A model generated the notes under the pieces. It was not told the origin of the DNA. It made no database searches and was given only the letters and a program-made list of their open reading frames with translations. 64,000 bases of DNA from the NCBI RefSeq assembly GCF_002305875.1, contig NZ_CP022098.1, positions 7,378,001 to 7,442,000 of the forward strand, given 5' to 3'. Positions within the stretch are counted from its first letter, which is position 1. Every line of letters starts with the position of its first letter. This document shows positions 46,042 through 64,000 of this stretch, piece after piece. The DNA is from Cystobacter fuscus (GTDB lineage Bacteria; Myxococcota; Myxococcia; Myxococcales; Myxococcaceae). A program made the position numbers and the translations under genes.

Positions 46042-46092
46042 GCCGGAGCACCCCCCCTCTCGCATACGGGAGCAGTGCTTACCTTTCCCCGC

Positions 46093-46371
46093 ATGAGCCT
46101 CGTCAAGATCTACACGAAGTCCACCTGCCCCTACTCGAAGCGGGCCAGGCAGCTCCTCGATGCGAAGGGCGTGCTGTACGAGGAGAAGATCATCGACCTC
46201 GACCCCTCCCTGAGGGGCGAGATGATCGCCGCCACGAACGGGAAGGCGACCACGCCACAGGTCTTCATCGCGGGCCGGCACATCGGTGGCAGCGACGAAT
46301 TGCTGGCGCTGGAGAACTCGGGCGAGCTCGACGTGCTGCTCGCGGATTCGAGCGCTCAACCGAGCGCCTGA
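46093..46371 (+). CDS. grxC: Glutaredoxin 3-type protein
   Basis: The ATG at 46093 gives 92 residues; the longer frame to 46075 adds only six. The thioredoxin-fold protein has the dithiol active site CPYS in YTKSTCPYSKRARQLLDAKG, the cis-Pro region TTPQVFIAGRHIGGSDELLA and the glutathione-binding GGSDEL. It reduces disulphides with glutathione in the cytoplasm. It is 51 bases after the FHA regulator gene and convergent with the AcoR-like regulator gene. Confidence 0.9.
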   Translation: MSLVKIYTKSTCPYSKRARQLLDAKGVLYEEKIIDLDPSLRGEMIAATNGKATTPQVFIAGRHIGGSDELLALENSGELDVLLADSSAQPSA

Positions 46372-46393
46372 GTCGTCGGCCGCACCACCAGGT

Positions 46394-48349
46394 TCAGCGG
46401 CCCTCCTCCACGTCCCAGCCCACGTCCGCCGCCCGCGGTACGGCCCTCCTCTGTCCGGGGTGTTGCCGGCCGAGCATCCGGTAGAGCGTGCTCCGCGCCA
46501 CGCCGAGGCGCCGCGCCGCCTCGCTGAGGTTGCCGTTCGCGGCGGCCATCGCCTCGCGCAGCGCTCGGGCCTCCGCGGCCTTCCTGCCTCCACCCTCGTG
46601 AGACCCCGCCGCGCCGGACGTCTCCGCGACATCCTCGGGGAGGTGTTCGGGAGCGAGTGGCTCGCCCTCTCCCGCGAGCGCGAGGGCGTGCGCGAGCGCG
46701 GACTTCATCTCCCGCACGTTCCCCGGCCACGCGTGCGCCTCGATGAGCCGCTCGGTCTCGGGGCACAGCGGGGGTGCCTCGCGGCCCTGCTCCCGGGCGA
46801 TCTTCTCCACGAGCGCGCACGCCAGCTCGGTCTTGTCCGTCCTCCGGCGCAGGGGCGGCAGGGAGAGCACCGCGCCGCGGATGCGATAGTAGAGATCGCG
46901 ACGGAACTTCCCCGCCTCCACCATCGCGGGCAGGTCGCGGCAGGTGGCGCTGATGAGCCGGAACCGCGACTCGCGCGGCTTCGTCTCGCCCAGCCGGAAG
47001 TAGTGGCCATCATCGAGCACCCGGAGCAGGAGCGCCTGCAACGACTCGGGCATCTCGCCGATCTCGTCGAGGAAGAGCGTTCCCCCATCGACCACGCCGA
47101 GCTTGCCCTTGCTTCCGGCGGCGAGCGCGCCGGTGAACGCACCCGGTGCGTAACCGAACAGCTCGGCCTCGAGCAGCCCCGCGGGCAGCGCCCCGCAGTT
47201 GAGCGCGAGGAAGGGACCGGACGCGTTGCCACTCGCCTCGTGAATGGCGCGCGCGAGCAACTCCTTGCCCGTGCCCGTCTCGGCGAGCAACAGGACCGGG
47301 AGCGAGCTGCCCGCGACCCGGGCCGCCCGTTGCTTCGCGTCCCGCAGAACCGGATCGCTTCCCAGGAGCACGTTGAACGAGCCCGGCAGCGGACCCACCG
47401 GGCGCGCCTGGGGCACGTCGCGCTCGACGAAGACGGCGAGCGCGAGCGGGCGTCCACGCGCATCGAAGTGTGGCACGGGGTGGAGGCGCATGCCGGAGAC
47501 ACGGCACGACCTGCCGCCCAGGGCCGCATCCAGGAGCGCGTTCCACGACAGCGAGAGCACGTCCTCGACGGCCCGACCCATCACGTGGGCGGGAGGGAGA
47601 CCGAGCCTCGCCGCCGCATCCACGCTCACCTGCCTGACCACGCCAGGGGCCTCGACCAGGAGCGACGCGGAGCCCGCGAGCCGGGCCTCGAGACTCCGAC
47701 GACCCCCCGCGAGCATCTCCTCGTAGCCGCGCAACCGGAGCGACTGCTCGGCGGCGTGCGCGGACGCGAGCACGAGCGCCTCGAGCAAGGGATTGGCCTG
47801 GGACACGGCTCCGCTCACGTCCAGCACGGCGACGAGCTCACCAAAGGGATCGCGAATCGGCGCCGCGTAGCAGGCGAGGCCGTGGTTGCGCTCCTCGAGG
47901 TGAGCGCGCCCGACCACCGCCACCGCCTCGCCCTCCGCGATCGCGGTTCCAATGGCATTCGTGCCGCGCGTGCCCTCCGCCCAGCGCGCGCCCTCCACCA
48001 GCCGCGACGTATCCGCCGAGAGCAGGGACGCGCCAACGCCGCCGCGTGCGAGCACCACGACCCCCTCCGCATCGCTGAGGACCGCGCGGAACGCGGAGGC
48101 GCTCGTCTCCGTGGCGAGCCGAGACACGAGCTGGACCGCATCCACGCATCGCTCGGTCAGGAACTCACGCCGGGAATGGAGCTCCGCATCGGTGACTCCT
48201 TCGGAGTGCGAGGGACCATCCGCCTTCGCTCCCAGCTCCACCGCCCGTGACCACCGGCGCAGGAGGGAGTGCGCGCGCTCCTCCGCACCAATGGCCCCCG
48301 ACACGAACCGTTCCCAGAGTCGTGGCCCTGGCTCGACCAGTTTGAGCAT
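46394..48349 (-). CDS. AcoR-like sigma-54-dependent activator with GAF domain
   Basis: The ATG at 48349 has AGGAGG seven bases upstream and gives 651 residues. The first 250 residues contain a GAF-type sensor (VVLARGGVGASLLSADTSRL, GTNAIGTAIAEGEAVAVVGR, HGLACYAAPIRDPFGELVAV), followed by a PAS-like piece, and then the AAA+ domain: Walker A ETGTGKELLARAIHEA, intact GAFTGA, DGGTLFLDEIGEMP and the R-finger region. The C-terminus is a Fis-type helix-turn-helix (GNLSEAARRLGVARSTLYRM). It is typical of AcoR regulators that drive aldehyde and alcohol dehydrogenase genes. It is divergent from the dehydrogenase genes with a 267-base gap that holds a sigma-54 promoter. Confidence 0.93.
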   Translation of the reverse strand: MLKLVEPGPRLWERFVSGAIGAEERAHSLLRRWSRAVELGAKADGPSHSEGVTDAELHSRREFLTERCVDAVQLVSRLATETSASAFRAVLSDAEGVVVLARGGVGASLLSADTSRLVEGARWAEGTRGTNAIGTAIAEGEAVAVVGRAHLEERNHGLACYAAPIRDPFGELVAVLDVSGAVSQANPLLEALVLASAHAAEQSLRLRGYEEMLAGGRRSLEARLAGSASLLVEAPGVVRQVSVDAAARLGLPPAHVMGRAVEDVLSLSWNALLDAALGGRSCRVSGMRLHPVPHFDARGRPLALAVFVERDVPQARPVGPLPGSFNVLLGSDPVLRDAKQRAARVAGSSLPVLLLAETGTGKELLARAIHEASGNASGPFLALNCGALPAGLLEAELFGYAPGAFTGALAAGSKGKLGVVDGGTLFLDEIGEMPESLQALLLRVLDDGHYFRLGETKPRESRFRLISATCRDLPAMVEAGKFRRDLYYRIRGAVLSLPPLRRRTDKTELACALVEKIAREQGREAPPLCPETERLIEAHAWPGNVREMKSALAHALALAGEGEPLAPEHLPEDVAETSGAAGSHEGGGRKAAEARALREAMAAANGNLSEAARRLGVARSTLYRMLGRQHPGQRRAVPRAADVGWDVEEGR

Positions 48350-48467
48350 CCCGGTTCCTCCTCTTGGTTCGCTACCGACGCCCCCAGTCGGACATTCCGG
48401 ATTCTGTTTCAATCCGTCTGGAGATTGCACCCCCGCCCCGCGCCATTTCATGTGACGTCCCGCGTCA

Positions 48468-48526
48468 TGTCGCGAAACGCTGCAACTGACTCGTCCGATT
48501 GACCGCTTCCGCTCCAACCCGCGACA
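48468..48526 (+). promoter_or_regulatory. Inverted half-sites, probable activator-binding sites
   Basis: TGTCGCG (48468-48474) and CGCGACA (48520-48526) are perfect inverted copies, 45 bases apart, placed 20-80 bases upstream of the sigma-54 element. A second inverted pair, TGACG-N5-CGTCA, sits at 48453-48467. Position fits enhancer binding by the divergent AcoR-like activator. Confidence 0.5.
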
Positions 48527-48547
48527 CCGGCCGAGAGGAGAGCGGCA

Positions 48548-48563
48548 CGGCACGCACGCTGCA
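48548..48563 (+). promoter_or_regulatory. Sigma-54 promoter of the dehydrogenase genes
   Basis: CGGCACGCACGCTGCA keeps GG and GC at the exact sigma-54 spacing and differs from TGGCAC-N5-TTGCA at two positions. Transcription would begin near 48575, leaving a leader of about 42 bases before the ATG at 48617, which has GGAG upstream. The divergent gene encodes a sigma-54 activator. Confidence 0.65.
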
Positions 48564-48616
48564 CAAGGGAGTCAGGGCGCGCCGCGATTCCGCGGCCCCC
48601 TACCCCCGGAGCGCAG

Positions 48617-50146
<1,530 letters not shown>

Positions 50147-50204
50147 GCAGTCACCAGCGCATCCACCAGCAGCGATTCATCCATAGACAGACAGGGAGCC
50201 AGAC

Positions 50205-51233
50205 ATGAACAAGACGATGAAGGCCGCGGTCGTACGTGAGTTCGGCAAGCCGCTGCGGATCGAGGAAGTGGAGATTCCACGTCCCGGGCGCGGCGACATC
50301 CTGGTGAAGATCCACGCGTGCGGCGTCTGCCACACGGATCTGCATGCCGCCGAGGGCGACTGGCCGGTCAAGCCGAGTCCGCCGTTCATTCCCGGCCACG
50401 AGGGGGTCGGCCACGTGGTGGCGGTCGGCGAGGGCGTCACCCACGTGAAAGAGGGAGACCGGGTGGGCGTTCCCTGGCTGTACTCGGCCTGTGGCTACTG
50501 CGAGCACTGTCTGGGGGGTTGGGAGACCCTGTGCGAGCAACAGAAGAACACCGGCTACTCGGTCAACGGCGGCTTCGCCGAGTACGCACTGGCCAATGCC
50601 AACTACGTCGGGCACCTGCCAGACAAGGTGAGCTTCGCCGAGATCGCCCCCGTGCTGTGCGCGGGCGTGACCGTCTACAAGGGCCTCAAGGTCACCGATA
50701 CCCGACCCGGGGACTGGGTGGTGATCTCCGGCATCGGCGGGCTCGGCCACATGGCGGTGCAGTACGCGCGGGCCATGGGTCTGAACGTGGCGGCGGTGGA
50801 CGTGGACGAGGGCAAGCTGCAACTGGCCAGGAAGCTCGGCGCCACCGTCACCGTCAACTGCCGCGAGAGCGACCCGGCGGCCTACCTCAAGAAGGAGATC
50901 GGCGGCGCCCACGGCGTCCTGGTCACCGCCGTGTCGCCGAAGGCCTTCGAGCAGGCGCTCGGCATGGTGCGCCGCGGCGGCACGATCTCGCTCAACGGTC
51001 TGCCTCCGGGTGACTTCCCGCTGCCCATCTTCAACGTGGTGCTCAACGGCATCACCGTGCGCGGCTCGATCGTCGGCACCCGCCTGGACCTGCAGGAGTC
51101 GCTGGAGTTCGCCGCGCAGGGCAAGGTGAAGGCGACCGTGTCCACCGACAAGCTGGAGAACATCAACGACGTGTTCAAGCGCATGCACGCCGGCAAGATC
51201 GAGGGCCGCGTGGTGTTGGACCTGGGCGCATGA
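50205..51233 (+). CDS. adhP: Zinc-dependent alcohol dehydrogenase
   Basis: The 342-residue enzyme belongs to the AdhP-like medium-chain dehydrogenases. Catalytic zinc ligands are the Cys in [10 protein letters not shown] (near residue 40), the His of [14 protein letters not shown] (near 65) and [10 protein letters not shown] (near 150). Structural zinc is held by [15 protein letters not shown] (near 93-107). The NAD fold reads [13 protein letters not shown]. It should interconvert primary alcohols and aldehydes with NAD. It follows the aldehyde dehydrogenase gene closely and probably shares its sigma-54 promoter. Confidence 0.93.
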
Positions 51234-52283: not shown

Positions 52284-53327
52284 GTGAATCCCGAATCCCG
52301 TCCTCCTCCAGCCACAACTCCCTGGCTCGTCCGACGAAAGCCCTCCGCCTCCCCCAGGCTCCGCCTCTTCTGCTTCCCCTATGCTGGCGCCGGCAGCCTC
52401 CCGTACTACAAGTGGCCGGATCTGCTCCCCAGCGACATCGAGGTGTGCGCCCTCCAATACCCTGGCCGGGAGAGCCGCCTCCGGGAACCCCTCTTCACCG
52501 CCCTGCCGCAGCTCACGGCGAAGCTCATCGAGGTGCTCTCCCCCTTTCTCGACGGCGAGTACGCCTTCTTTGGCCACAGCCTCGGCTCACTCGTCGCGTT
52601 CGATCTGATCCGTGAGCTCCGCCGGCAAGGGCGGCCTCTTCCGCGGCTCTTCTTCGCCTCGGGCTCCGCGGCCCCCTCCTACCGGAGCCAACTCCCACCC
52701 TTCAGCCATTTCGGACGGGACGACTTCATCCGCGAGCTCTCCACCCGCTATGGCGGCCTGCCCCTCCAGATTCTGGAGCAGCCCGAGCTGCTCGAGCTCA
52801 TCCTCCCCACCCTCCGTGCCGACGTGAAGGTGTCCGAGAGCTACGTCCACCGCGAAGAGCCTCCCCTCTCCGTGCGGATCTGCGCCTTCGGTGGCTCGGG
52901 TGACCCCCACGTCACCGAAGCCTCGCTCGCCGCCTGGGGCCAGGAGACCCAGCACTCCTTCACGATGCAGATGTTTTCAGGCGGGCACTTCTTCATCAAC
53001 GAAGTGCCCGATCAGGTTCTGCAGATCATCCGCGACGAACTCACCACCCGCTCCCATCCCCGCCCCATGACCAAGACCCAGTTGCTCGCCGACCTGACCC
53101 GCTACGTCGCCGAAGAGATCCTCGAGGGTGCCGCAGAAGACCTGGAGCCCTCCACTCCCCTGCTCGAGCTCGGCATCCTGAACTCCCTGGAGACCACCCG
53201 GATGATGGCCTTCATCCAGAAGCAATACGGCATCACCGTGCCCGCCGATGCGATTCGCGTCGAAGACCTCCAGACCCTCTCCGCGATCACGGACCTGGTG
53301 TACGGCATCCATACCCGGAAGCCGTAA
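52284..53327 (+). CDS. Type II thioesterase fused to an acyl carrier protein
   Basis: A GTG at 52284 opens a 347-residue protein. Residues about 25-255 are a type II thioesterase: LRLFCFPYAGAGSLPYYKWP, then the nucleophile GHSLGS near 96-101, a late Asp in AFGGSGDPHV and His in FSGGHFFINE. The last 80 residues are a carrier protein with the phosphopantetheine site LELGILNSLETTRM; the Ser follows Asn rather than Asp. Free-standing type II thioesterases clear stalled chains from NRPS/PKS lines; here the enzyme carries its own carrier, which may hold a starter or a removed unit. It is convergent with the PKS gene. Confidence 0.85.
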   Translation: MNPESRPPPATTPWLVRRKPSASPRLRLFCFPYAGAGSLPYYKWPDLLPSDIEVCALQYPGRESRLREPLFTALPQLTAKLIEVLSPFLDGEYAFFGHSLGSLVAFDLIRELRRQGRPLPRLFFASGSAAPSYRSQLPPFSHFGRDDFIRELSTRYGGLPLQILEQPELLELILPTLRADVKVSESYVHREEPPLSVRICAFGGSGDPHVTEASLAAWGQETQHSFTMQMFSGGHFFINEVPDQVLQIIRDELTTRSHPRPMTKTQLLADLTRYVAEEILEGAAEDLEPSTPLLELGILNSLETTRMMAFIQKQYGITVPADAIRVEDLQTLSAITDLVYGIHTRKP

Positions 53328-53410: not shown

Positions 53411-56400
53411 TCAGCGACCGCGGCGCAGCATGTTCTGGACCTCGTCGTCGTCCAGGCCGTCCACGTCCGCCAGGAGCGCATCCAACTCCCGATCCTCGAC
53501 GGGGGCCTCCCTCACGGGGGCGGCCTTCTCTTCCTTCATGCCGAGGACTTCGTCCATCAGGTAGTCCACCAACCCGTTGACGGTGGGATTGTCGAAGGCG
53601 ACGGTCGCGGGCAACGAGGCCCCCAGGCTCCGCTGCAAGAGGTTGCGGAGCTCCACGGACATCAGCGAGTCCATCCCGAGGTCGAAGAAGCCCTGACCCG
53701 GATCGAGCGCTTCGGAAGATGGCCGTCCCAGCACGCCGTTCACGAGCTCACCCACATGCGCACGGAGAGTGGCTCGCCGCTTGTTGGCGGGCAGGGGCTC
53801 GAGCTTCTGCCGGATTCCCTCGCCCACGGCGGGGCTCGCCTTCTGGATGAAGCCCTCGAACAGCGGAGAACTTCCCCGCTTCCCGATCACCGCCCAGTCC
53901 ACCGGGAGGATGCCGAGCTGCCCCCCCAGTCCCAGGGACTGCTCGAAGACCTGCAGCCCGTCCCCGACGGGAATCACCCCGAAGCCAAGCTGCTCCATCC
54001 GCCGCTGGATCTGCTCGTCCGCGGCCGCGCCGACCTCGGCCCAGGCGCCCCAGTTGAGGCTCAGGCCGGGCAGTCCCGCCGCGCGGCGGTGGTGCGCCAA
54101 CCCATCCAGGAACGCATTGGCGGCCACGTAGCTGGCCTGTCCGGCCGAGCCAATCAGCGAAGCCGCCGACGAGAAGAGCACGAAGAAGTCGAGCTCCACG
54201 CCCTGGAGAGCGCGGTGGAGGTTCCACCCACCGAAGACCTTGGAGGCGAACACCCGGGCGAACCGCTCCGGGGTCAACTGCATCAAGAGCCCATCGTCGA
54301 TGACACCCGCGGAATGCACCACGCCCCGGATCGGCGGCAGCCGTCCGGAGAGCCCCGCCAGGGCGCGCTCGAGCTCGGATGCGACGGACACGTCGCAGGA
54401 GAGGCTCTGGACGTTCACGCCTCGCTCCGCCAGCACCGCCAGCCGGGCGCGAGCCTCTGTCCCCGGCTCGCGCCGCCCGAGCAGCACGAGGTGGCGAGCA
54501 CCCCGCTCGGCCAATCGCTCCGCCGCGGCCAGCCCCAGTCCGCTGAGCCCTCCCGTGACGAGATAGCTCGCGTCCGGGCGCAGCGAAGGCCCGGCCTCAC
54601 CGCTCGAGAGCTGGAGCTTGCGACCGCGAACCAGGCGGGGCACCAGGCGGGTCTTCCCCCGCAGTGCGACTTCGTCCTCGGCGCTCCCACCGAGGAGCTC
54701 ATCCCGCAGCTGCTCGGCGAGCTGCTCGAACTCCTGTGCGGAGGAACCGGGAGCCAGATCCACACGCCGACAGTGGAGCTCTGGATGCTCGCGCATGATC
54801 GCCTTGCCGAGCCCCCACAGGGCCGCACCGCCCAGGCTGGAGATCCGCTCCCCCTCGACGGTCGCCTGAGCCCCTCGCGTCACCAGCCAGAGTGAAGTCT
54901 CCGCGCCCTTCGGGGCCCGCACGAGCCCCTGGGCGAGCTCCAGCACGCGCGTGCTGTGAAGGAAGGACTCCTCCGGCACACCGGGCCCTGTCCCAGCTCC
55001 ATCGAGGCTCCACAGATCCACGACATGCACCGGGCCTCGCGCCGGATCCGCGCGCAGGGCCAGGAGCGCCTCGGCACGCTCGCGATCGACGCCCTGGCCT
55101 CGCTCACCCGCCTTCGCCGTCACCACGTGCCAGCCGCGAGCCTGGAGGCTCTCGGCGAGGCGACCGCCCACGCCCGCCTCATCGGCGAGGATGAGGCACT
55201 GAGGCACCGCTCCCGCGACCGGACCGGAAGCACCCAGCGGCCGGGCCTGCCACTCCAGCTCATAGAGCCAGCTCTGCAGACGTTTGCTCTTCGCGCCGAA
55301 GAGGCCCTCGCGGGTGACACGCCGGAGCTGCAGCCGCTCCACGGTCGCCACGAGCTCCCCTTCGGAAGTCATCAGCGAGATGTCACACGTATAGCCAGGG
55401 CCCTTCGGATCCTCGCTCCGCTTGATCCGGGCATGGGCCCACACCTCCCGTGTGCCCGTCACGTGCACGCGAACCTTCCCGACTCCCACGGGAAGGTAGG
55501 CGGCATCTCCCTCCCCTTCGAGGACGGCTCCCACCATCTGGAAGCACGCATCCAGGAGGGCGGGTTGGAGAGCGTACCGCTCGACATCCACCAGCGCGGC
55601 GCCGGACAAGCCAAGCCGGCCGAGGACCTCGCCCTCGCCCCTCCAGAGGCCCTGGATCGCACGGAAGCTGGGGCCATAGGCGAGCCCCGCCCGGCCCAGC
55701 TTCTCGTAATAGCCGTCCACGGGCACTTCGTGAGCGATCACGGTCCGCAGGCGCTGGAGATCGACGCGTTCGTCCGACGCGGACACCGCCGCCGCGGAGA
55801 GCTTTCCATGAGCGTGCAGGATCCAGGCGGGCTCGACCTCACCACCGCGAGCCTCCTCCTGGCTGAAGATCTCGAACCTCCCCGCGCGGTCCCCTTCGGG
55901 CGTGTAGAGCAGATGCACGCGGCGCTCGCCCTCGTCCGGGAGGAAGAGGGCCTGCGAGAAGGCGAACTCGTCGACGGTGGCCCCAGAGGCCCCGAAGAGC
56001 GCGGCCCCCGCGGCGAGCCCCATCTCCACATAGGCGGCCCCCGGCATGACGACCTGTCCGTAGACACCGTGATCCCGGAGGAAGGCCGGCTTCGAGGCCC
56101 CCAGGGAGGACTCGAACTGCCGCACCTGGGACGGTGACTCCTGGCGGCGACCCAGGAGCGGGTGGACGCGCTCGCTCCGCGTGGAGCCCTGGGCCTTCAC
56201 CTCCTGACGGTCCCAGGTCGCGCCGGTGAGCTCCATCCAGTGCTCCCGCCGCTGGAAGGGATAGCTGGGGAGCACGACCTTGCGCCGATCACGCCCCGCC
56301 TCCAGGCCCTGCCACTTCACCGGAGCCCCCGCCACGTACAGGGCCCCGAGGCTCTCCAGCATCTGCTGCCAGTCGGAGCGCTCGGGCCGCAGGCTCGCCA

Positions 56401-58993
56401 GCCAGAGCTTGTCACCCTCCGTGATGCAGGACTGCCCCATCGTGACGAGCGTCGGCTTCGGGCCGACTTCCAGGAACACCCGCACGCCCGCCCGGTTCAG
56501 GGTCTCCATCCCCCGGGCGAACGACACGTGCTGGCGGAGGTGATCCACCCAGTACCGGGGATTCACGATCTCCGCTCCGGCCTCCTGTCCGCTCAGGTTC
56601 GAGATCAGCGGGATCGCCGGCTGCTGGAGACGCACCTTCTCCACGGCCCGGGAGAACTCGTCGAGGATGGGATCCATCAGGGACGAGTGGAACGCATGGG
56701 AGACCTGGAGCGGCGTGCCCCGCCGTCCCCTCCTGCTCAGCTCGCCGAGGCAGTCGCTCACCGCCCCCTGGCGGCCCGAGATCACCACGCTGCGCGGTCC
56801 ATTGAGCGCCGCGATGGAGAGCTGTCCCGCATACCGCGGCAACAACTCCTCCACCTCCGCCGGCTCCGCGGCCACGGAGGCCATCGCGCCCCCGGTGGGC
56901 AGGGACTGCATCAGCCGCGCGCGCGTGGCGATGAGCTCGAGCCCCTCCTCCAGGGTGAACACGCCGGCCACGCACGCCGCCACGAACTCCCCAACGGAGT
57001 GCCCCATCACGAAGTCCGGGACAATCCCCCACTGCATCCACAGCCGGGCCAGGGAGTACTCGAGCGCGAACAGCGCCGGCTGGGTGTAGCCCGTCTCGTT
57101 CAGCCGCGCACGCGCGCTGTCGCCGCGCTCCGGCGGATACAGCAGCGAGATGAGCGACTGTCCCATCAGCGGGCGCAGCACCTCGTCACAGCGAAGAAGG
57201 GTCTGGCGGAAGGAGGGCTCGGTCCGGAAGAGCTCCTCGCCCATCCCCAGCCCCTGCGCGCCCTGCCCCGTGAACAGGAAGGCCGTCCGCGGCGGCCCCT
57301 CGGCCCTTCCCCGCGGCACCGACGGAGGGCTCTGTCCCTCCAGGACCGCCTTGAGCTGGTCGCGCACCGCGTCCCGCGAGGCCCCGAGGACCGCGAGGCG
57401 ATGTCGGAAGTGGACTCGCCCGGTATTGGCGGTGAAGCAGATGTCCTCGAGCGACTCCGAGGCGAGCTCGGGCCCGCCGAGCGCCTGCTCGTAGCGCTGG
57501 ACGAGCGCTCCCAGCGCCTCCGGGTTCCTGGCCGACAACGCCAGGACGTGAAGTGGCCGCGGGAGCTCCTCCGGGACCCGGGGCGACTCCGGAGGTGCTT
57601 CCTCGATGAGGACGTGGGCGTTGACACCGCTGAGCCCAAAGCCGCTGATCCCCGCGACCCGGGGCCTCGCTCCCGTCTTCCACGGCGTCAGCCGCGTGGG
57701 AATGGAGAGCCGGAGCCGTGCCCAGTCGACGGTCGGATTGGGGTTGCGCAGGTGCAGGTGCGGCGGCAGCTCACCATTGCGCATCGACAGCACGACCTTG
57801 ATCATGCCCGCCGCGCCCGCGGCGGACTCGAGATGCCCGAGGTTCGTCTTCACCGAGCCGACGAGCAGCGGCTCCTCCGGACGGCGTCCCTGCCCCAGCG
57901 CCGCGTCGAGGGCGCGAAGCTCGATGGGGTCTCCCAGGGGAGTCCCCGTCCCGTGCGCCTCCACGTAGTGCACGTCGGACGGCGCCAGGCCCGCGGACTC
58001 CAGCGCCTTGCGCAGCAGCTTCTCCTGCGCGGGCCCGTTGGGCACCGTCAGGCCTCCGCTCAACCCATCGTGGTTCACGGCCGAGCCGCGGATGACGGCG
58101 AGGATGCGGTCCTTGTCCCGCTGCGCATCCGAGAGCCGCTTGAGCACCAGGACGCCGCACCCCTCGCCGCGGCCGTAGCCGTTGGCGGACGCGTCGAAGG
58201 TCTTCGAGCGCCCATCCGGCGCCAGCGCCCGCATCTTGGACAGGACGATGTTGCTGTCCGGGCGGATGATCACGTTCACGCCGCCGGCGAGCGCCAGCGA
58301 GCACTCCCCCTGGCGCAGGGCCTGGCACGCGAGGTGGGCCGACACGAGCGCCGAGGAGCACGCCGTCGCGACGACCATGGAGGGGCCTTGCAGGCCCAGG
58401 ACATAGGAGACGCGTCCCGCCGAGAAGCTCAGCTCGTTGCCGGTCCCCATGTACGGCAGATCCCGGGTCTGGACCGCGTTGAAGGGAACGCGCCCGTAGT
58501 CACTGCTCAGAAAGCCCACGTACACGCCGGTGTCGCTTCCGGCGAGCGAGCTGGGGGCAATCCCGGCGTCCTCCAGGGCCTCCCAGGCGACCTCGAGCAT
58601 CAAGCGCTGCTGGGGATCGACGTAGTTCGCCTCGCGCGGCGAGAGCCCGAAGAACTCGGAGTCGAAGGCGGCGATGGGCTGCGAGAGGAAACCGCCCTCG
58701 CGCACGCTCATCTTCCAGTCGGCGTCGGGATCCCGCGCGTAGTACGCATCCGCGTCCCAGCGGTCCGCGGGGACCTTGCCCACCGCATCGACCCCGGCGC
58801 GCAGCAGCTGCCAGTACGACCGCGGATCGTCGGCACCGCCGGGGAACCGGCAGCCCATGCCGATGATGGCGATCGGCTCCGAGCGCGCTCGCTCCAGTCC
58901 GTCGACACGCGCGCGGAGCGTCTTGATCGCCAGGGCCGCCCGCTGCAAGGGCGTCATTTCGTCCAGCGAGGGGGGAGTCTGACCGTTGGACAT
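53411..58993 (-). CDS. Type I polyketide synthase module KS-AT-DH-KR-ACP
   Basis: The 1860-residue protein is one extension module. After a docking helix (LQRAALAIKTLRARVDGLER) come KS (about 38-465; active Cys in VVATACSSALV, His in EAHGTGTPLGDP and VGSVKTNLGHLESAAG), AT (about 570-860; GHSVGEF, and HAFH at about 770, which indicates malonyl-CoA), DH (about 940-1210; DHGVYGQVVMPG and LLDAC), KR (about 1470-1650; VTGGLSGLG, IDD motif of B-type reduction, Tyr in ASYVAAN) and ACP (about 1730-1805; GMDSL). There is no ER or thioesterase. The C-terminal tail (DALLADVDGLDDDEVQNMLR) looks like a docking end. The product of this module should be an alpha,beta-unsaturated unit. The KS loop has Ala before TACSS where most have Asp. 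Confidence 0.95.
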   Translation of the reverse strand: MSNGQTPPSLDEMTPLQRAALAIKTLRARVDGLERARSEPIAIIGMGCRFPGGADDPRSYWQLLRAGVDAVGKVPADRWDADAYYARDPDADWKMSVREGGFLSQPIAAFDSEFFGLSPREANYVDPQQRLMLEVAWEALEDAGIAPSSLAGSDTGVYVGFLSSDYGRVPFNAVQTRDLPYMGTGNELSFSAGRVSYVLGLQGPSMVVATACSSALVSAHLACQALRQGECSLALAGGVNVIIRPDSNIVLSKMRALAPDGRSKTFDASANGYGRGEGCGVLVLKRLSDAQRDKDRILAVIRGSAVNHDGLSGGLTVPNGPAQEKLLRKALESAGLAPSDVHYVEAHGTGTPLGDPIELRALDAALGQGRRPEEPLLVGSVKTNLGHLESAAGAAGMIKVVLSMRNGELPPHLHLRNPNPTVDWARLRLSIPTRLTPWKTGARPRVAGISGFGLSGVNAHVLIEEAPPESPRVPEELPRPLHVLALSARNPEALGALVQRYEQALGGPELASESLEDICFTANTGRVHFRHRLAVLGASRDAVRDQLKAVLEGQSPPSVPRGRAEGPPRTAFLFTGQGAQGLGMGEELFRTEPSFRQTLLRCDEVLRPLMGQSLISLLYPPERGDSARARLNETGYTQPALFALEYSLARLWMQWGIVPDFVMGHSVGEFVAACVAGVFTLEEGLELIATRARLMQSLPTGGAMASVAAEPAEVEELLPRYAGQLSIAALNGPRSVVISGRQGAVSDCLGELSRRGRRGTPLQVSHAFHSSLMDPILDEFSRAVEKVRLQQPAIPLISNLSGQEAGAEIVNPRYWVDHLRQHVSFARGMETLNRAGVRVFLEVGPKPTLVTMGQSCITEGDKLWLASLRPERSDWQQMLESLGALYVAGAPVKWQGLEAGRDRRKVVLPSYPFQRREHWMELTGATWDRQEVKAQGSTRSERVHPLLGRRQESPSQVRQFESSLGASKPAFLRDHGVYGQVVMPGAAYVEMGLAAGAALFGASGATVDEFAFSQALFLPDEGERRVHLLYTPEGDRAGRFEIFSQEEARGGEVEPAWILHAHGKLSAAAVSASDERVDLQRLRTVIAHEVPVDGYYEKLGRAGLAYGPSFRAIQGLWRGEGEVLGRLGLSGAALVDVERYALQPALLDACFQMVGAVLEGEGDAAYLPVGVGKVRVHVTGTREVWAHARIKRSEDPKGPGYTCDISLMTSEGELVATVERLQLRRVTREGLFGAKSKRLQSWLYELEWQARPLGASGPVAGAVPQCLILADEAGVGGRLAESLQARGWHVVTAKAGERGQGVDRERAEALLALRADPARGPVHVVDLWSLDGAGTGPGVPEESFLHSTRVLELAQGLVRAPKGAETSLWLVTRGAQATVEGERISSLGGAALWGLGKAIMREHPELHCRRVDLAPGSSAQEFEQLAEQLRDELLGGSAEDEVALRGKTRLVPRLVRGRKLQLSSGEAGPSLRPDASYLVTGGLSGLGLAAAERLAERGARHLVLLGRREPGTEARARLAVLAERGVNVQSLSCDVSVASELERALAGLSGRLPPIRGVVHSAGVIDDGLLMQLTPERFARVFASKVFGGWNLHRALQGVELDFFVLFSSAASLIGSAGQASYVAANAFLDGLAHHRRAAGLPGLSLNWGAWAEVGAAADEQIQRRMEQLGFGVIPVGDGLQVFEQSLGLGGQLGILPVDWAVIGKRGSSPLFEGFIQKASPAVGEGIRQKLEPLPANKRRATLRAHVGELVNGVLGRPSSEALDPGQGFFDLGMDSLMSVELRNLLQRSLGASLPATVAFDNPTVNGLVDYLMDEVLGMKEEKAAPVREAPVEDRELDALLADVDGLDDDEVQNMLRRGR

Positions 58994-59263: not shown

Positions 59264-59779
59264 TCAAGTCGTGGAAGTGATGATGATTTTCTCCGGAGGC
59301 TTGGCGGCTTCGCCAGGAGTGCCTTCGCTCGCTGGCGGCGCCGGCGGAGCTGCCGCCGTGCTCGGCTTGGGAGGCTCCGGCACGACGGCGGGCGGCGTGG
59401 CGCCCGTGCTCTTCGCGTAGAGCACCTCCTTGGCCTTGTCCATGATCTCCCCAAAGGACATCACGCGCATGTAGGAGCGGGGCTTGTGCGCCCCCATGTG
59501 AGCCCCCATGCGCGCCGCGGGAGCAGGACCGGAGGCGGAAGCGGGGGGACTCCGCCGCGACTCGTCCTGGATCGCCGCGTCGATGTGCTCCAGCTCATTG
59601 ATCTGGGCATCGAGCAGATGCGAGACGCCCTTGAGGAAGTCCTTCTTCGCGCGGAAGAGATGCTGGACGAACCCTCTGCCGCCTGGGACGACGACCTCGG
59701 CGAAATCAGCGAGCTGTGCCCCATCCTCGGGAGCAGCCCGAAACATCCCTCTCGAATAACCCTTGTTCTGCGAGGACAT
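59264..59779 (-). CDS. Small unknown protein of the biosynthetic operon
   Basis: The ATG at 59779 overlaps the stop of the ATPase gene as TGATG, with GAGAGG upstream; the product has 171 residues. Residues 1-65 are amphipathic helix with FVQHLFRAKKDFLKGVSHLL, residues 80-125 contain AARMGAHMGAHKPRSYMRVM, and the last 45 are a Pro/Ala/Thr-rich, probably disordered tail ending IIITSTT. No domain was recognised. Tight coupling suggests it acts with the ArsA-like ATPase, for example as an adaptor. PKS follows after 270 bases. Confidence 0.6.
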   Translation of the reverse strand: MSSQNKGYSRGMFRAAPEDGAQLADFAEVVVPGGRGFVQHLFRAKKDFLKGVSHLLDAQINELEHIDAAIQDESRRSPPASASGPAPAARMGAHMGAHKPRSYMRVMSFGEIMDKAKEVLYAKSTGATPPAVVPEPPKPSTAAAPPAPPASEGTPGEAAKPPEKIIITSTT

Positions 59780-60921
59780 CAACCACCTCTCTCTTTCCGG
59801 AAATTCACGATGAGTCTATCACCTTCCATACGAGCCCCTACCGTGGGCAGGAGCGCCATCATTCTGGGAAGCAGGATGTTGCGCCGGACGGCCCCCACCC
59901 GGACGACGAGCTCTTCCTCGCGCCGGGAGATGTCGATGTCGTCCTTGGTCGTGAAGGGGAGCTTGAGCTCCAGCCGGTACGCATCCACCGCTTCCTTGCT
60001 GAACCCGAGGGGGGCCTGCGAGACCATGGGCTGCACCGGATCCTCCCCCGCGTAGAGCTGCTCCATGAATGCCTCGAGCGGGACCTCGCCCACCACCTCG
60101 CTGGAGTGGAGTGTGGCCTTCACCACCTGAAGCGGAGCGAAGACACTCTGGAGCTTCTCGACGTGAGGCTGCTGCGTGCTCTCCCCTCCTGGCGCGAGGC
60201 GATTGATGAAGACGCAGTCGGTGGTAATGCCATGGAGGCTGAAGTAGGTATACGCCCGCTGGGTCTCCTGAACTGATACCTTCCCGGCGGTGGCCACCAG
60301 CCGCAGGGTCGTCACGGCCGGGTCGCGCAGCAGCTCGTCCACTGCCGCCAGCCTGTCTTGCGCCTCCTGGAGCGCCCCTGGCTCACGGCAACTCCTGGCT
60401 GTCAGTAGCCCACTTCGAGCCTTGCGCGCCGGAGATGACTGCCTCCGGGCATACCAACCCAGGGCCGACGCACTGCTGACCAGGCGCAGCGCCTCCGTCG
60501 TGGACGGACAGTCCACGATGAGCAGCTCGTACCGCTGCTCCCGGAGGAGCTCGCTCAGCCGCAGGAGGGTGACGAGCTCTTCCAGGCCGGGAGTGATCGC
60601 CACTTCCTCCGCGCTCACGTTCTCCAGCCCCTCGCCCAGGAGCGCGGCCAGGGAGCCGCGGCCGTGACTCCAGCCGCGCCGCAGCTCTTCCTGGACATCG
60701 AGCTCCTGGATGTCCAGGTGCTCGTTGATGCGGACCGGCTGTCCCCTGGTGGCTGGGAACAGCGGCTCCTCGAGGCCAAACGTGCGGCCCAGGCTCTGGG
60801 AGAGGCCAAACGAGACAATCCCCGTGCGAACGCCCCGGCGCGAAGCCGCCAGGCCGGTCGCGGCCGCCACGACCGTCTTCCCGGCGCCACCACCTCCCGT
60901 GACAAGAATGAGCCTGGCCAC
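59779..60921 (-). CDS. ArsA/Get3-like ATPase with HSP20-like C-terminus
   Basis: The 380-residue protein has the P-loop of the ArsA family, but the signature Lys is missing: GGGGAGKT instead of GKGGVGKT. The following VDCPSTTEALRLVSSASALG corresponds to the ArsA Asp-Pro-Thr loop. The last 70 residues (DIDISRREEELVVRVGAVRR NILLPRMMALLPTVGARMEG) are an ArsA HSP20-like domain. ArsA homologues move arsenite or membrane-protein tails; those in secondary-metabolite clusters are of unknown role. Loss of the Lys that crosses the dimer interface may change the mechanism. It is coupled to the small downstream gene by TGATG and is 48 bases after the patatin gene. Confidence 0.8.
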   Translation of the reverse strand: MARLILVTGGGGAGKTVVAAATGLAASRRGVRTGIVSFGLSQSLGRTFGLEEPLFPATRGQPVRINEHLDIQELDVQEELRRGWSHGRGSLAALLGEGLENVSAEEVAITPGLEELVTLLRLSELLREQRYELLIVDCPSTTEALRLVSSASALGWYARRQSSPARKARSGLLTARSCREPGALQEAQDRLAAVDELLRDPAVTTLRLVATAGKVSVQETQRAYTYFSLHGITTDCVFINRLAPGGESTQQPHVEKLQSVFAPLQVVKATLHSSEVVGEVPLEAFMEQLYAGEDPVQPMVSQAPLGFSKEAVDAYRLELKLPFTTKDDIDISRREEELVVRVGAVRRNILLPRMMALLPTVGARMEGDRLIVNFRKERGG

Positions 60922-60969: not shown

Positions 60970-62064
60970 CTAGGCCCCTTGGGGCGACGGGTTGGCAGGG
61001 GCCTCACCCAGCCAGCCCGACTTCGACACCCACTTCCGCGCTCGCTCGAGATGATCCATGGTGGACTGCGAGGCCAGCAGCGTCTGGAGGACCGCCTCCA
61101 CCTGCTTGAGATCGGTCGCGGAGAGGCGCTTTTCGACAACGGGGTTCAGCCGGAGGTATTCCTTCCGGAGGATCATGCGGCACTGGTAGTGCACGGCCTC
61201 CGCGCCCGCCTCGAGCAACATCTTGATCAGGATCATGGGGTTGTGGGCGTCCAGGAGCCACTTGGCGAAGCCCCAGTTGGCGACGCCGTGATGGAACTCC
61301 GGTGCCAGATACGTGGACATCTGCCCGTTGCCCACCGAGAACAGCAGGATGTCCGTCATATCCGGCTGCTCGGTCTCCAGCGTCTCCACCGCATCGTTCT
61401 TGCTCTTGCGGCTCAGGATGCTGATGCCCTGGGCCAGCCCCACGAGCGACGGATTGTTGGCGAACAAGCCTCCGTCCACGTAGCCGCTCCCCCTCTGCTT
61501 GATCCCCTGGTAGATGGGATAGGAGAGCGGCGGCGAGCCGCTCCGCATCAAGACATCCACCACCAGCTCGTCCAGATCGGCGTCACTTTCAGGGCTGGTG
61601 TTGTGGAAGATCTTGGCCTTCCAGGTCCGCATCCCCTTCCGCTTTCCATCGAGCTGGTAGGACGCGATCGCCACCTTGTGCTTGAGATCCCCGAGCCTCA
61701 GCGTCGAGCCGAAGTAGTCGCAGAAGAAGTCGCGCATGTAGCTCGAGTCGAGGAGCGAGCTGACACCCGCCAACGCCTTCAGGAAGCGCCCGGGGGACAC
61801 TCCCTTCTTGTTCATGGAGACGACCTGGCCCCAGAAGTCGATGATCTTGGCGAGGGCGGCATCCGGATCCGCCTCGGCGGCCAGGAACGCCGCGTTGAAG
61901 GCACCCGCCGATGAGCCCGCGAACAGATCCACGGAATTCAGCAGCGGCTGCTTGTTTCCCCTGGAATCGAGCATCTGCCGGAGCGCCCTCAGCAGGCCCG
62001 CGGTCACATAACCCTCTCCGCCAGATATGGACGAACCATCCATCGACAGAATTCGATACGGCAT
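60970..62064 (-). CDS. Patatin-like lipase/acyl hydrolase
   Basis: The ATG at 62064 overlaps the stop of the NRPS gene (TGATG); a GTG just before it (62067) is possible. The 364-residue protein has the patatin oxyanion loop (SMDGSSISGGEGYVTAG), the nucleophile GSSAG near residue 50 and the catalytic Asp in DGGLFANNPS near 196. No signal peptide is visible, so it should be cytoplasmic. It could release or transfer an acyl group on an assembly-line intermediate, or act on lipid. Context makes a role in the cluster likely, but the target is unknown. Confidence 0.85.
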   Translation of the reverse strand: MPYRILSMDGSSISGGEGYVTAGLLRALRQMLDSRGNKQPLLNSVDLFAGSSAGAFNAAFLAAEADPDAALAKIIDFWGQVVSMNKKGVSPGRFLKALAGVSSLLDSSYMRDFFCDYFGSTLRLGDLKHKVAIASYQLDGKRKGMRTWKAKIFHNTSPESDADLDELVVDVLMRSGSPPLSYPIYQGIKQRGSGYVDGGLFANNPSLVGLAQGISILSRKSKNDAVETLETEQPDMTDILLFSVGNGQMSTYLAPEFHHGVANWGFAKWLLDAHNPMILIKMLLEAGAEAVHYQCRMILRKEYLRLNPVVEKRLSATDLKQVEAVLQTLLASQSTMDHLERARKWVSKSGWLGEAPANPSPQGA

Positions 62065-64000
62065 CACACCACCTCCCTTGAGTGCTGCTCGTTCAGACCC
62101 TTCGCCGACATCCCTGCCCGAGGGGCTTCATGACTCGAGGCCGCGGCCAGAACCTTATCCAGACATTCCTGCAACCGGAGTGCAAGCTTAATGACATTTC
62201 TCTCATCCATGATGAGCGTCATGTGGTTGCCGGGTACCGCAATCACTTCCACACCCGCCCGGGCGAACCTGCGCACGCTCTCGACGAGCGTGTCCACCCC
62301 AATCGCCGGAGGGCCCGCGCGGAAGAGCGTGGCGGGACCTGCGTACGAGGAGAACGTGTAGAGACGCTCGGCCTGCATGGTCACGAGGAAGTTCCGGGCG
62401 GTCCGCGCCGCGTCCCGCAGGAACCGCCAGAGGTAGGTGCGCTGGCCGTCGGTGTCCCTGCGGAACAGCTCCCCGAAAGACTCGGGCAGGCTGATGCCCA
62501 TCCACCCCCCCACGAGCCTCACGTTCTCATAGTCACGCGGCAGCGGGGCCTCCGTCAGCACCCTCACCATCTGTGAGCTGGCGAATAGCCCCTCCCCGTT
62601 CTCCCCATTGTCCCGAGCGGCCTGCCGGTCGAGCGCCGCGCCATCGATCAGCCCCAGCAGCGCGACCTGCTCTCCCATCGCCTCGAGCTGCCGCGCCATC
62701 TCACACACGATGATGCCGCCGAACGACCACCCCGCGAGCCGGTACGGTCCGTGCGGCTGGAGCTGCCGCATGGCGTCCACGTAGAGCGCGGCCGTCTCCT
62801 CGATCGTCTCCGGGGGCCGCAGGTCGTCCATGACGCCCGGCATCTGGAAGCCGAAGACGGGCTGCTCCGGACTCAAGTAGCGCGCCAGGGAGACGTAGAC
62901 GGCCGGGCTGCCGGCGGAGGGCGGAGCGAAGAACAGCGGTGGCTTGTTTCCCAGGGGCTTCAACGCCACCACGCAGTCGGGTAGCCGCAGGGCCAGCGCG
63001 GACTGGGCTCCCGAGTGCGCGTCCACCCAGCGGGCCAGCTCCTCGACCGTGGGACGCTCGAAGACCTCGTTGAGAGGAACCTCGACGCCCAGACGGGACC
63101 GGATGCGCGCGATGAGGGTGACGGCGAGCAGCGAGTGTCCTCCCAGCTCGAAGAAGCTCGCGTTGGGCGCCACGGTGCCGAGCCCCAGCAGCTCGCCGAA
63201 GAGGGCCTGGAGCTGACGCTCCGTCTCGCTGCTGCCCACCCGCCGCACCAGGGCACTGGCCTCATGCTCTCGTTCGGGCGGCGGTGGCAGGGCCTTGCGG
63301 TCGATCTTCCCGCTGGGCGTGAGCGGCAGTGCCTCGAGGATCACGAAGACCGCCGGGATCATGTACTCGGGGATCACCCCGTGGAGGGACTTCCGAAGCT
63401 CCTCCTTCAGCGCCCCCTCCGCCTGGGCGCCCCACGTGCGCGGCTCGACGTAGGCCACCAGGCGCGGCTCACGGCCCGGCGCGCGCTGCAACACCACGGC
63501 GGCCTGGACCACCTGGGGGTGCCGCCCGAGCGCCGACTCGATCTCCCCCGGTTCCACCCGATGGCCGCGGATCTTGAGCTGATCGTCCAACCGACCCAGG
63601 TACTCGATCCGGCCGTCCGGGAGATGACGGGCGAGATCCCCCGTGCGGTAGAGCCGGGCGCTCCCGGTGCCGGGGGTCTCCAGCTCGAAGGGGTTGGGGA
63701 TGAACCGCTCGGCCGTCAGCTCCGGACGGCCCAGATAGCCCCGGGCCAGTCCGACCCCACCGATGTGGAGCTCGCCGGGCACACCGATGGGCACCGGCTG
63801 TCGATTCCGGTCCAGGATGTAGAGCTGCGTGTTGGCGATCGGCCGGCCGATGGGAATCCGCTCCGGGAGCGGCCCGTCACCCGGGAGCAGCTCCTCGATG
63901 CAACAAGCCACGGCGGCCTCGGTCGGACCGTATTCGTTGATGATGCGGGTGGCGATGCGCTGCCGCCGCCAGGTGGCCAGGTCCACTCCGTGAAGGCCCT
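62064..64000 (-). CDS. NRPS terminal module, A-PCP-TE, 5' part beyond window
   Basis: The reading frame is open to the window end; the visible C-terminal 645 residues begin inside an adenylation domain. Core motifs run in order: A5 NEYGPTE, A6 GELHIGGVGLARGYLG, A7 YRTGDL, A8 GRLDDQLKIRGHRVEPGEIE and A10 LTPSGKIDRKAL. The carrier domain has FFELGGHSLLAVTL and the type I thioesterase has GWSFGG and a late His in GNHMTLI. The specificity residues lie mostly upstream of the visible part, so the substrate cannot be read. The module ends a peptide assembly line and releases the chain. Three operon genes, patatin, ArsA-like and the small unknown gene, follow. Confidence 0.93.
   Translation of the reverse strand, partial: GLHGVDLATWRRQRIATRIINEYGPTEAAVACCIEELLPGDGPLPERIPIGRPIANTQLYILDRNRQPVPIGVPGELHIGGVGLARGYLGRPELTAERFIPNPFELETPGTGSARLYRTGDLARHLPDGRIEYLGRLDDQLKIRGHRVEPGEIESALGRHPQVVQAAVVLQRAPGREPRLVAYVEPRTWGAQAEGALKEELRKSLHGVIPEYMIPAVFVILEALPLTPSGKIDRKALPPPPEREHEASALVRRVGSSETERQLQALFGELLGLGTVAPNASFFELGGHSLLAVTLIARIRSRLGVEVPLNEVFERPTVEELARWVDAHSGAQSALALRLPDCVVALKPLGNKPPLFFAPPSAGSPAVYVSLARYLSPEQPVFGFQMPGVMDDLRPPETIEETAALYVDAMRQLQPHGPYRLAGWSFGGIIVCEMARQLEAMGEQVALLGLIDGAALDRQAARDNGENGEGLFASSQMVRVLTEAPLPRDYENVRLVGGWMGISLPESFGELFRRDTDGQRTYLWRFLRDAARTARNFLVTMQAERLYTFSSYAGPATLFRAGPPAIGVDTLVESVRRFARAGVEVIAVPGNHMTLIMDERNVIKLALRLQECLDKVLAAASSHEAPRAGMSAKGLNEQHSREVV

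Follow-up and report, generated by a model that had tools for sequence, protein, structure and literature searches.

Get3d (AtGet3d; NosGet3d/All4481, PDB 3igf and 8egk) joins a Get3/ArsA ATPase to a C-terminal α-crystallin domain, lacks a CXXC motif and has a degenerate active site. According to the sections of PMC10248533 considered here, Get3d is conserved in photosynthetic bacteria and land plants, keeps both the Lys that reaches across the dimer and a hydrophobic chamber, and had no partner known to the authors of that study, who expected new ones. Small heat-shock proteins likewise combine an α-crystallin domain with a C-terminal I-x-I/L tail, and their IXI motif binds to the β4-β8 groove of the domain (PMC4823740, relevant passages). 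Here we describe a gene pair of the soil bacterium Cystobacter fuscus in which a Get3d-like ATPase is encoded directly before a small helical protein that ends in an I-x-I motif. The pair lies in a stretch of 64,000 nucleotides (assembly GCF_002305875.1, contig NZ_CP022098.1, positions 7,378,001 to 7,442,000 of the forward strand), referred to as the window. In contrast to Get3d the window ATPase has a Gly in place of the cross-dimer Lys, a short lid and a coupled gene for a small partner, and in contrast to small heat-shock proteins tail and domain are split over two proteins, one of them an ATPase. We propose, as a reading that is possible rather than probable, that the ATPase serves as a weakly hydrolysing, nucleotide-binding scaffold to which the partner is clipped by its tail, and that it handles a water-insoluble pigment or the enzymes producing it at the membrane.

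The ATPase and its small partner

Both genes are encoded on the minus strand, with the following features (window coordinates; aa, amino acids):

59779..60921 (-): Get3/ArsA-type ATPase with C-terminal α-crystallin domain, 380 aa, GTG start
60874..60897 (-): P-loop GGGGAGKT, residues 9-16, with Gly at residue 10 replacing the cross-dimer Lys
59800..59985 (-): α-crystallin (ArsA_HSP20) domain, residues 313-374 (Pfam)
59264..59779 (-): small helical partner, 171 aa counted from the conserved ATG, TGATG overlap with the ATPase stop
59552..59680 (-): long helix predicted for the partner, residues 34-76, with block means of pLDDT of 84-93 as far as residue 70 and of 68 for residues 71-80
59267..59293 (-): C-terminal tail of the partner, EKIIITSTT, with I-x-I motif

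The open reading frames (ORFs) lie at 59264-60921, where a preliminary description made from the DNA letters had placed them. That description was also right about the P-loop, which has Gly instead of the Lys of GKGGVGKT at residue 10, and about the overlap of stop and start codon, one base being shared between the ATPase stop TGA and the partner ATG. The α-crystallin domain, the other catalytic and lid losses and the conserved tail of the partner go beyond it. The ORF listing begins the partner one codon earlier, at a TTG; the ATG start is used here.

Residues 3-290 of the ATPase match Pfam ArsA_ATPase (PF02374; E 7.1e-44, 150.7 bits, cut-off 24.3) and residues 313-374 match ArsA_HSP20 (PF17886; E 5.5e-18, 64.7 bits, cut-off 22.5). 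Because of these matches and of close relatives in 27 of 147 class genomes the ORF is not a chance one, and judged by its domains it has the Get3d-like layout of a Get3/ArsA fold followed by an α-crystallin domain. The sequence contains no CXXC, its P-loop does not match the signature GKGGhGK[ST], and its C-terminus lies shortly past the last α-crystallin strand, without an I-x-I-type tail of its own. With alignments as query, the top-scoring relatives of known structure were the archaeal Get3 proteins 3zq6 and 3ug6, whose chains (324 and 349 aa) end before the α-crystallin part and whose P-loop Lys is intact. The NosAFP/Get3d equivalog model NF050088 was missed by far (92.8 bits, cut-off 325), the four intact relatives from other NRPS/PKS clusters reaching 127.2-134.5 bits. 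In the transport-energising ATPase model TIGR00345 the window ATPase stayed below the cut-off (117.8 bits, cut-off 135), which was passed by the relative in genome G076 (159.6) and by the same four intact relatives (217.5-241.4). Arsenite pumping was ruled out by a score far below the cut-off of the arsenical pump-driving ATPase model TIGR04291 (35.4 bits, cut-off 650) together with the polyketide synthase (PKS) and nonribosomal peptide synthetase (NRPS) neighbours. The Bag pair models NF053621/NF053622 were missed as well (BagB, 26.8 of 521 bits; BagA, 28.8 of 400 bits), and no second ArsA gene was found in the operon. A structure prediction of the ATPase from two sequences (pLDDT 51.7) was too poor for judging a hydrophobic client chamber.

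For the partner, a single-sequence structure model predicts helices at residues 20-30, 34-76 and 109-125; outside these the confidence is low (mean pLDDT 65). The predicted helix 34-76, in which residues 35-52 reach a hydrophobic moment of 0.62 over 18 residues, fits the earlier characterisation of the protein as amphipathic. Across 23 homologous partners conservation is seen in the N-terminal R-x-P region, in the PGG-RGFVQQLFRAKKD helix and in the final few residues, and the linker is variable and rich in Pro, Ala, Ser, Thr and Gly (60-82%, n=23). A membrane-spanning partner was ruled out, as the top 19-residue Kyte-Doolittle mean across the 23 proteins is 0.91. Searches of Pfam and NCBIfam gave no convincing family (best E 0.0029, TssA, a model matched by 3 of 22), a search of the PDB nothing convincing (best E 0.036), and a fold search with the partner model no match (best E 3.7).

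Conservation of the gene pair

Close relatives of the ATPase (E<=2.3e-79) occur in 27 of the 147 class genomes, the remaining matches having E>=5.6e-23, and in 23 of these 27 a homologous partner ORF follows in the same +2 frame. The junction is TGATG in 15 pairs, ATGA in five and a two-base gap in three. A profile of the partner found the same 23 among 195 phylum genomes, plus one weak match (G158, E 3.9e-4). This match, a partner-like match in G092 (31%, two stops) and a short second ATPase copy in G078 were left out of the counts; PF17886 matches other than the 27, the G078 fragment, G156 and G188 (among those listed, E>=7.6e-12, many short frames) were taken as ordinary HSP20 proteins. Genus g19 carries the pair in 17 of 27 genomes. 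The assumption that the two genes belong together is borne out by this arrangement, and the tail plausibly docks on the ATPase.

The order NRPS, patatin, ATPase, partner is constant in all 23 pair-bearing genomes (23 of the 147), and a PKS at least 69% identical to the last PKS of the window lies downstream in 22 of them, the contig of G056 ending earlier. An acyl-CoA dehydrogenase at least 80% identical and a patatin at least 65% identical to those of the window were each found in exactly these 23 of the 147 genomes. NRPS/PKS genes also surround the remaining four relatives (G082, G080, G073, G072), each of which has at least one neighbour containing NRPS/PKS Pfam domains, so that all 27 full-length close relatives in the class stand in such surroundings, in clusters of at least two kinds.

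The ORFs are open in all 27 ATPases and all 23 partners. In all computed pairs the ratio of nonsynonymous to synonymous substitution rates (dN/dS) is below 1, with 0.14-0.73 for 14 ATPase pairs and 0.16-0.45 for 13 partner pairs, which argues that both genes are still under purifying selection.

A tail motif recurs behind other ATPases of this layout

In 20 of the 23 partners the C-terminus consists of EKI-x-[IL] plus a T or S, to which three extra residues are added in G000 and G074. By comparison, 17 of 379 background ORF ends have I-x-[ILV] within their last nine residues; the 23 partner linkers all lack the motif. We then examined eight further loci with ArsA-α-crystallin genes for a small gene directly behind the ATPase, and at five of them the small protein ends in [IV]x[ILV]:

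G080: 82 aa, ATGA overlap, tail KSIPIE
G082: 81 aa, tail SKITVD
G072: 113 aa, tail TKVGIK
G156 (another class): 146 aa, ATGA overlap, tail RIRISE
Nonomuraea gerenzanensis: 145 aa, DUF5304 (PF17230), tail EHIDLN

Among background ORF ends the motif with at most two residues after it was found in 20 of 457 (4.4%). The partners of G080 and G082 are 38% identical, and a comparison of the window's partner family with them gave a possible shared core with an hhalign probability of only 16% (E 0.0017). The five tails thus represent four apparent types, or three if this resemblance is real and only types unlike the window's partner are counted. The DUF5304 protein resembles the window partner in being small, encoded directly behind an ArsA-α-crystallin gene and terminated by HIDLN, but the two share no family and no NRPS/PKS gene was noticed among the listed ORFs of the unannotated Nonomuraea stretch. 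Nor were such genes noticed on the 16-kb contig of G156.

These loci suggest a wider proposal, to which we give slightly less credence than to the one made for the window. ArsA/Get3d-like ATPases with an α-crystallin domain may often have a dedicated small co-chaperone that is encoded directly behind them and plugs an I-x-I tail into that domain, and this protein could be the missing partner of the Get3d branch. The module of ATPase and co-chaperone would have been recruited in myxobacterial NRPS/PKS clusters for lipophilic products, and the DKxanthene-type form would later have lost lid and signature Lys and become a nucleotide-binding scaffold.

Some further features of these loci were observed. 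In G156 (L151, 8829-9930) the ATPase gene and its follower stand directly before a gene that by eye resembles the polyhydroxyalkanoate regulator PhaR, and Fusobacterium vincentii (L166, 6001-8354) has two tandem ArsA-α-crystallin genes without a small partner. The records of F. vincentii (2.1 Mb, labelled plasmid) and Nonomuraea (11.9 Mb) appear to be chromosomes that were deposited as plasmids.

Loss of catalytic and lid features

A survey of the P-loop in the homologues from the cluster, which the preliminary description had suggested, bore out the loss of the signature Lys in 21 of 23 proteins and failed to do so in two, G076 and G078, where it is kept; the position is occupied by S (7), T (6), R (5), C (2), K (2) or G (1). 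It is also kept in all four relatives from other NRPS/PKS clusters, i.e. in six of the 27. The Walker Lys is kept in 25 of 27 and replaced by Arg in G098 and G099, which also lack three switch II residues, and the switch I Asp is replaced by Gly in four of 23. All 27 retain the P-loop glycines and the Asn that contacts adenine, a role described for Get3 in the sections of PMC10248533 cited above.

The lid segment was defined as the stretch between the conserved WYxR and DP-x-x-T. By alignment, we take this segment to be the carrier of the hydrophobic lid in Get3. It measures 29-36 residues with 11-24% ILMFVW in the 23 proteins, as against 44-50 residues with 30-32% in the other four. In a tree the 23 form one clade (100/100), which makes the contrast in Lys and lid one evolutionary event and not 23. 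G076 and G078 are sister to the other 21 (93/89, under the tool's star threshold), and the lid was therefore probably lost first and the Lys later. As far as the sequences tell, loss of Lys and lid tracks the DKxanthene-type cluster. A link between Lys loss and having a partner was considered and withdrawn, as three of the four Lys-keeping relatives carry a small gene with an I-x-I-like tail.

Loss of the signature Lys is not unprecedented, since it is also missing in BagB of known structure (6bs3_B) and in the BagB-like members of two tandem ArsA pairs of the C. fuscus genome (12097652-12099105 and 10095451-10096841; L003, L007, L004, L006). Each of these BagA/BagB-like pairs, which score under the curated Bag cut-offs, has one P-loop with Lys (GKGGVGKT/S) and one without (GAGGVGKT, GSGGVGKT). 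They differ from the single ArsA gene of the operon in being tandem pairs.

The host gene cluster

We extended the reading 40 kb past the window in the same C. fuscus genome and assigned the cluster type from domain content, A-domain codes being read by hand. The neighbours of the pair within the window are:

60970..62067 (-): patatin-like lipase (motifs GSSAG and DGG), the next gene upstream in the operon
62064..64000 (-): NRPS module C-A-PCP-TE with Asn-like A-domain code, continuing to 66386 in window numbering
53411..58993 (-): PKS KS-AT-DH-KR-ACP, 1860 aa, downstream of the partner
52284..53327 (+): 347-aa thioesterase/carrier protein marking the convergent cluster end

In its upstream part, on the strand of the ATPase, the operon encodes KS-ACP, KS-AT-KR-ACP, Cy-A-PCP-KS-AT-DH-KR-ACP, two further PKS proteins and the NRPS C-A-PCP-TE, after which patatin, ATPase, partner and the final PKS follow. 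A divergent acyl-CoA dehydrogenase gene is followed by a stand-alone adenylation (AMP-binding) domain with the code DLLYLALVCK, which we take to be the proline code of pyrrole-forming adenylases. The A domain of the terminal NRPS module, which also has PCP and TE, reads DGTKVGEVAK, close to the Asn code, and the Cy motif DGTFIDGYS (DxxxxDxxS) marks a heterocyclising NRPS module. DKxanthenes are yellow pigments that consist of a proline-derived starter, a heterocycle, a polyene and a terminal Asn. The domain content agrees with this product of the Myxococcus dkx cluster, and by this content the host cluster, known here from its genes, is of the DKxanthene type. Eleven other loci gave matches to the thioesterase/carrier protein, at 62-64% over 255-266 aa.

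In Myxococcus xanthus the dkx genes are MXAN_4289-4305 (PMC3986340, in part). DKxanthenes are known from Myxococcus and Stigmatella, the cluster is missing in Corallococcus, and the compounds are nearly insoluble in water (all from passages of PMC13218925). The dkx literature passages covered do not discuss the ATPase-partner pair, and no discussion of either protein was found, though the primary DKxanthene papers (Meiser 2006, 2008; Hyun 2018) may list the ORFs.

Every NRPS/PKS cluster seen to carry the ATPase has a patatin-like lipase. In the four relatives outside the DKxanthene-type clusters a Pfam patatin lies next but one to the ATPase in G080, further along the contig of the ATPase in G073 and G082, and on another NRPS contig in G072. 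Lipases may commonly accompany such clusters as accessory genes. A patatin of M. xanthus, MXAN3780, is listed in the outer-membrane table of PMC3222651 (as excerpted) and adjoins in number the myxoprincomide gene MXAN_3779. In G083 (L158, 4516-5739) a 61% identical patatin stands without close relatives of ATPase or partner, near genes that by eye look like those of the mevalonate pathway.

The clusters at L098 and L160 (G072) and L106 (G073) combine a patatin with N-methylating NRPS modules and a TubC_N docking domain, and in G072 with a nitroreductase-type oxidase domain; this make-up is reminiscent of tubulysin clusters. The second ArsA-α-crystallin copy of G078 (L153, 9766-10233) is truncated, with no NRPS/PKS genes in the 19 kb seen, and the genes beside it are similar to the pair located behind the G073 ATPase. 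In the main cluster of G078 (L075, 5903003-5907853) an extra PKS and a 673-aa protein, both absent from the window, lie between partner and last PKS, and wider spacing in some other loci suggests the same insertion. Beyond the convergent cluster end the window (44653-51233) contains two σ54 activator genes, one with an FHA domain, and a pair of aldehyde and alcohol dehydrogenase genes.

Indications of a membrane location

An outer-membrane fraction of M. xanthus yielded 6 peptides of the patatin MXAN4295 and 4 of the hypothetical protein MXAN4293, the latter having been seen in an earlier study as well; both proteins were predicted to be β-barrels, and MXAN4294 is not mentioned in the parts of the paper considered (PMC3222651). 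The ATPase probably corresponds to MXAN_4294 and the partner to MXAN_4293, because by gene order the patatin MXAN_4295, inside the dkx range, fits that of the window. The opposite numbering is disfavoured, since MXAN_4293 would then be a PKS, unlike its label 'hypothetical'. Nine DKxanthenes were found in outer-membrane vesicles, and the passages on this in PMC4158809 name neither the patatin nor an ArsA protein. Taken together, the outer-membrane finds and the DKxanthenes in vesicles make a membrane role of the pair plausible.

The preliminary description had suggested that the two proteins move or insert a membrane-bound product or enzyme, and half of this is supported. A role at the membrane is plausible, but insertion of a tail-anchored enzyme is unlikely, because the lid is shorter and less hydrophobic than in the four relatives and because none of 12 proteins of the C. 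fuscus cluster has a C-terminal stretch of membrane-anchor strength. A search for a tail-anchored client among these 12 accordingly gave no candidate.

Proposed mechanism and alternatives

The coupling of the two genes, the type of the cluster (from its domains), the lost motifs and the conserved tail can be read from the genes themselves. They allow a model in which the pair would be accessory genes of the DKxanthene-type pigment cluster and the small protein a dedicated partner of the ATPase. The ATPase would keep its nucleotide-binding frame and have lost much of what serves fast hydrolysis and the holding of transmembrane helices; from the residues lost, hydrolysis appears to be slow or gone. 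By analogy with small heat-shock proteins, the Pro/Ala/Ser-rich arm of the partner would end in the I-x-[IL] tail and dock in the β4-β8 groove of the α-crystallin domain of the ATPase, and the long amphipathic helix would cover the vacated lid region or rest on the membrane. The pair, perhaps with the neighbouring patatin, would then act as a nucleotide-controlled adaptor that holds the water-insoluble polyene or its assembly line at the membrane, the nature of the cargo being a guess.

The patatin companion and the outer-membrane finds favour a membrane adaptor for pigment or synthase, and these are the very observations left unexplained if the pair is instead an assembly chaperone or docking scaffold that stabilises or arranges the PKS/NRPS proteins and leaves the product untouched. 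Such a chaperone, which we consider rather unlikely, would agree with the NRPS/PKS surroundings of all 27 close class relatives in at least two kinds of cluster, with the short conserved motifs at both ends of the partner and with the fact that α-crystallin domains are chaperone folds (PMC10248533). Marginally less credible still is a working Get3d-type shuttle, in which a hydrophobic helix, lipid or polyene is bound in a chamber and released by ATP hydrolysis. The product is very hydrophobic and the layout is that of Get3d, which in the sections of PMC10248533 considered binds a tail-anchored protein, showed lipid-like density and, despite degenerate sites, still slowly hydrolyses ATP. The shortened lid (23/23) and the substitutions of signature Lys (21), Walker Lys (2, to Arg) and switch I Asp (4, to Gly) speak against a shuttle, as does the lack of tail-anchored proteins among the 12 of the C. 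fuscus cluster, extra genes of other genomes' clusters lying outside this count.

BagA and BagB form a heterodimer, and the C. fuscus tandem pairs also combine one Lys-bearing with one Lys-less protein, as would be expected if the Lys-less ATPase paired with a Lys-bearing ArsA encoded elsewhere. This is improbable, as the operon yielded no second ArsA, G076 and G078 retain the Lys and co-inheritance points to the small protein as the partner. Equally improbable is that both genes are decaying passengers retained through linkage to the cluster: the progressive loss of catalytic residues and the highest dN/dS would suit decay, but every ORF of the 27 ATPases and 23 partners is open, dN/dS stays below 1 throughout, and P-loop glycines, α-crystallin residues and core and tail of the partner are conserved.

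Several points weigh against the scaffold and the wider proposal. One ATPase pair, G101/G110, reaches a dN/dS of 0.73, and compared with archaeal Get3 3zq6, whose lid stretch has 41 residues and 24% ILMFVW, the lid difference is mainly one of length. In three of the 23 partners (tails ERIKPT, and EKFKPT twice) the motif is without its second aliphatic residue, and with at most two residues allowed after the motif only 18 of the 23 match. No such small gene was present at G073 and G188, and F. vincentii has tandem ATPases instead. The chance of finding five of eight from the 20/457 background, 8e-6, is an optimistic figure: testing came after the motif had been noticed, and the partner in G080 is related to that in G082. 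Owing to this relationship and to the weak resemblance to the window's partner the five tails are not fully independent. According to the excerpts of PMC10248533, the α-crystallin domain of Get3d sits on the Get3 dimer interface and has no oligomerisation features, and the groove may therefore not be free. The identification of MXAN4293 with the partner derives from gene order and label, contaminants are possible in outer-membrane proteomics since neither protein looks like the β-barrel it was predicted to be, and no interaction, ATPase or localisation data were found for the pair.

Significance

DKxanthene is a pigment that is needed for sporulation and active against nematodes (passages of PMC13218925 and PMC3986340), and the scaffold model, if true, would assign a first role to an overlooked gene pair in its cluster. 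The homologues form a natural series from an intact to a worn-down Get3-type ATPase. Of less interest is the Lys loss itself; what deserves to be pursued is the tail motif that recurs behind other ArsA-α-crystallin genes. Similar pairs elsewhere suggest a more general, unrecognised partnership, and a two-gene module whose docking tail is recognisable from sequence would make the question of the Get3d partner directly testable in an easy organism.

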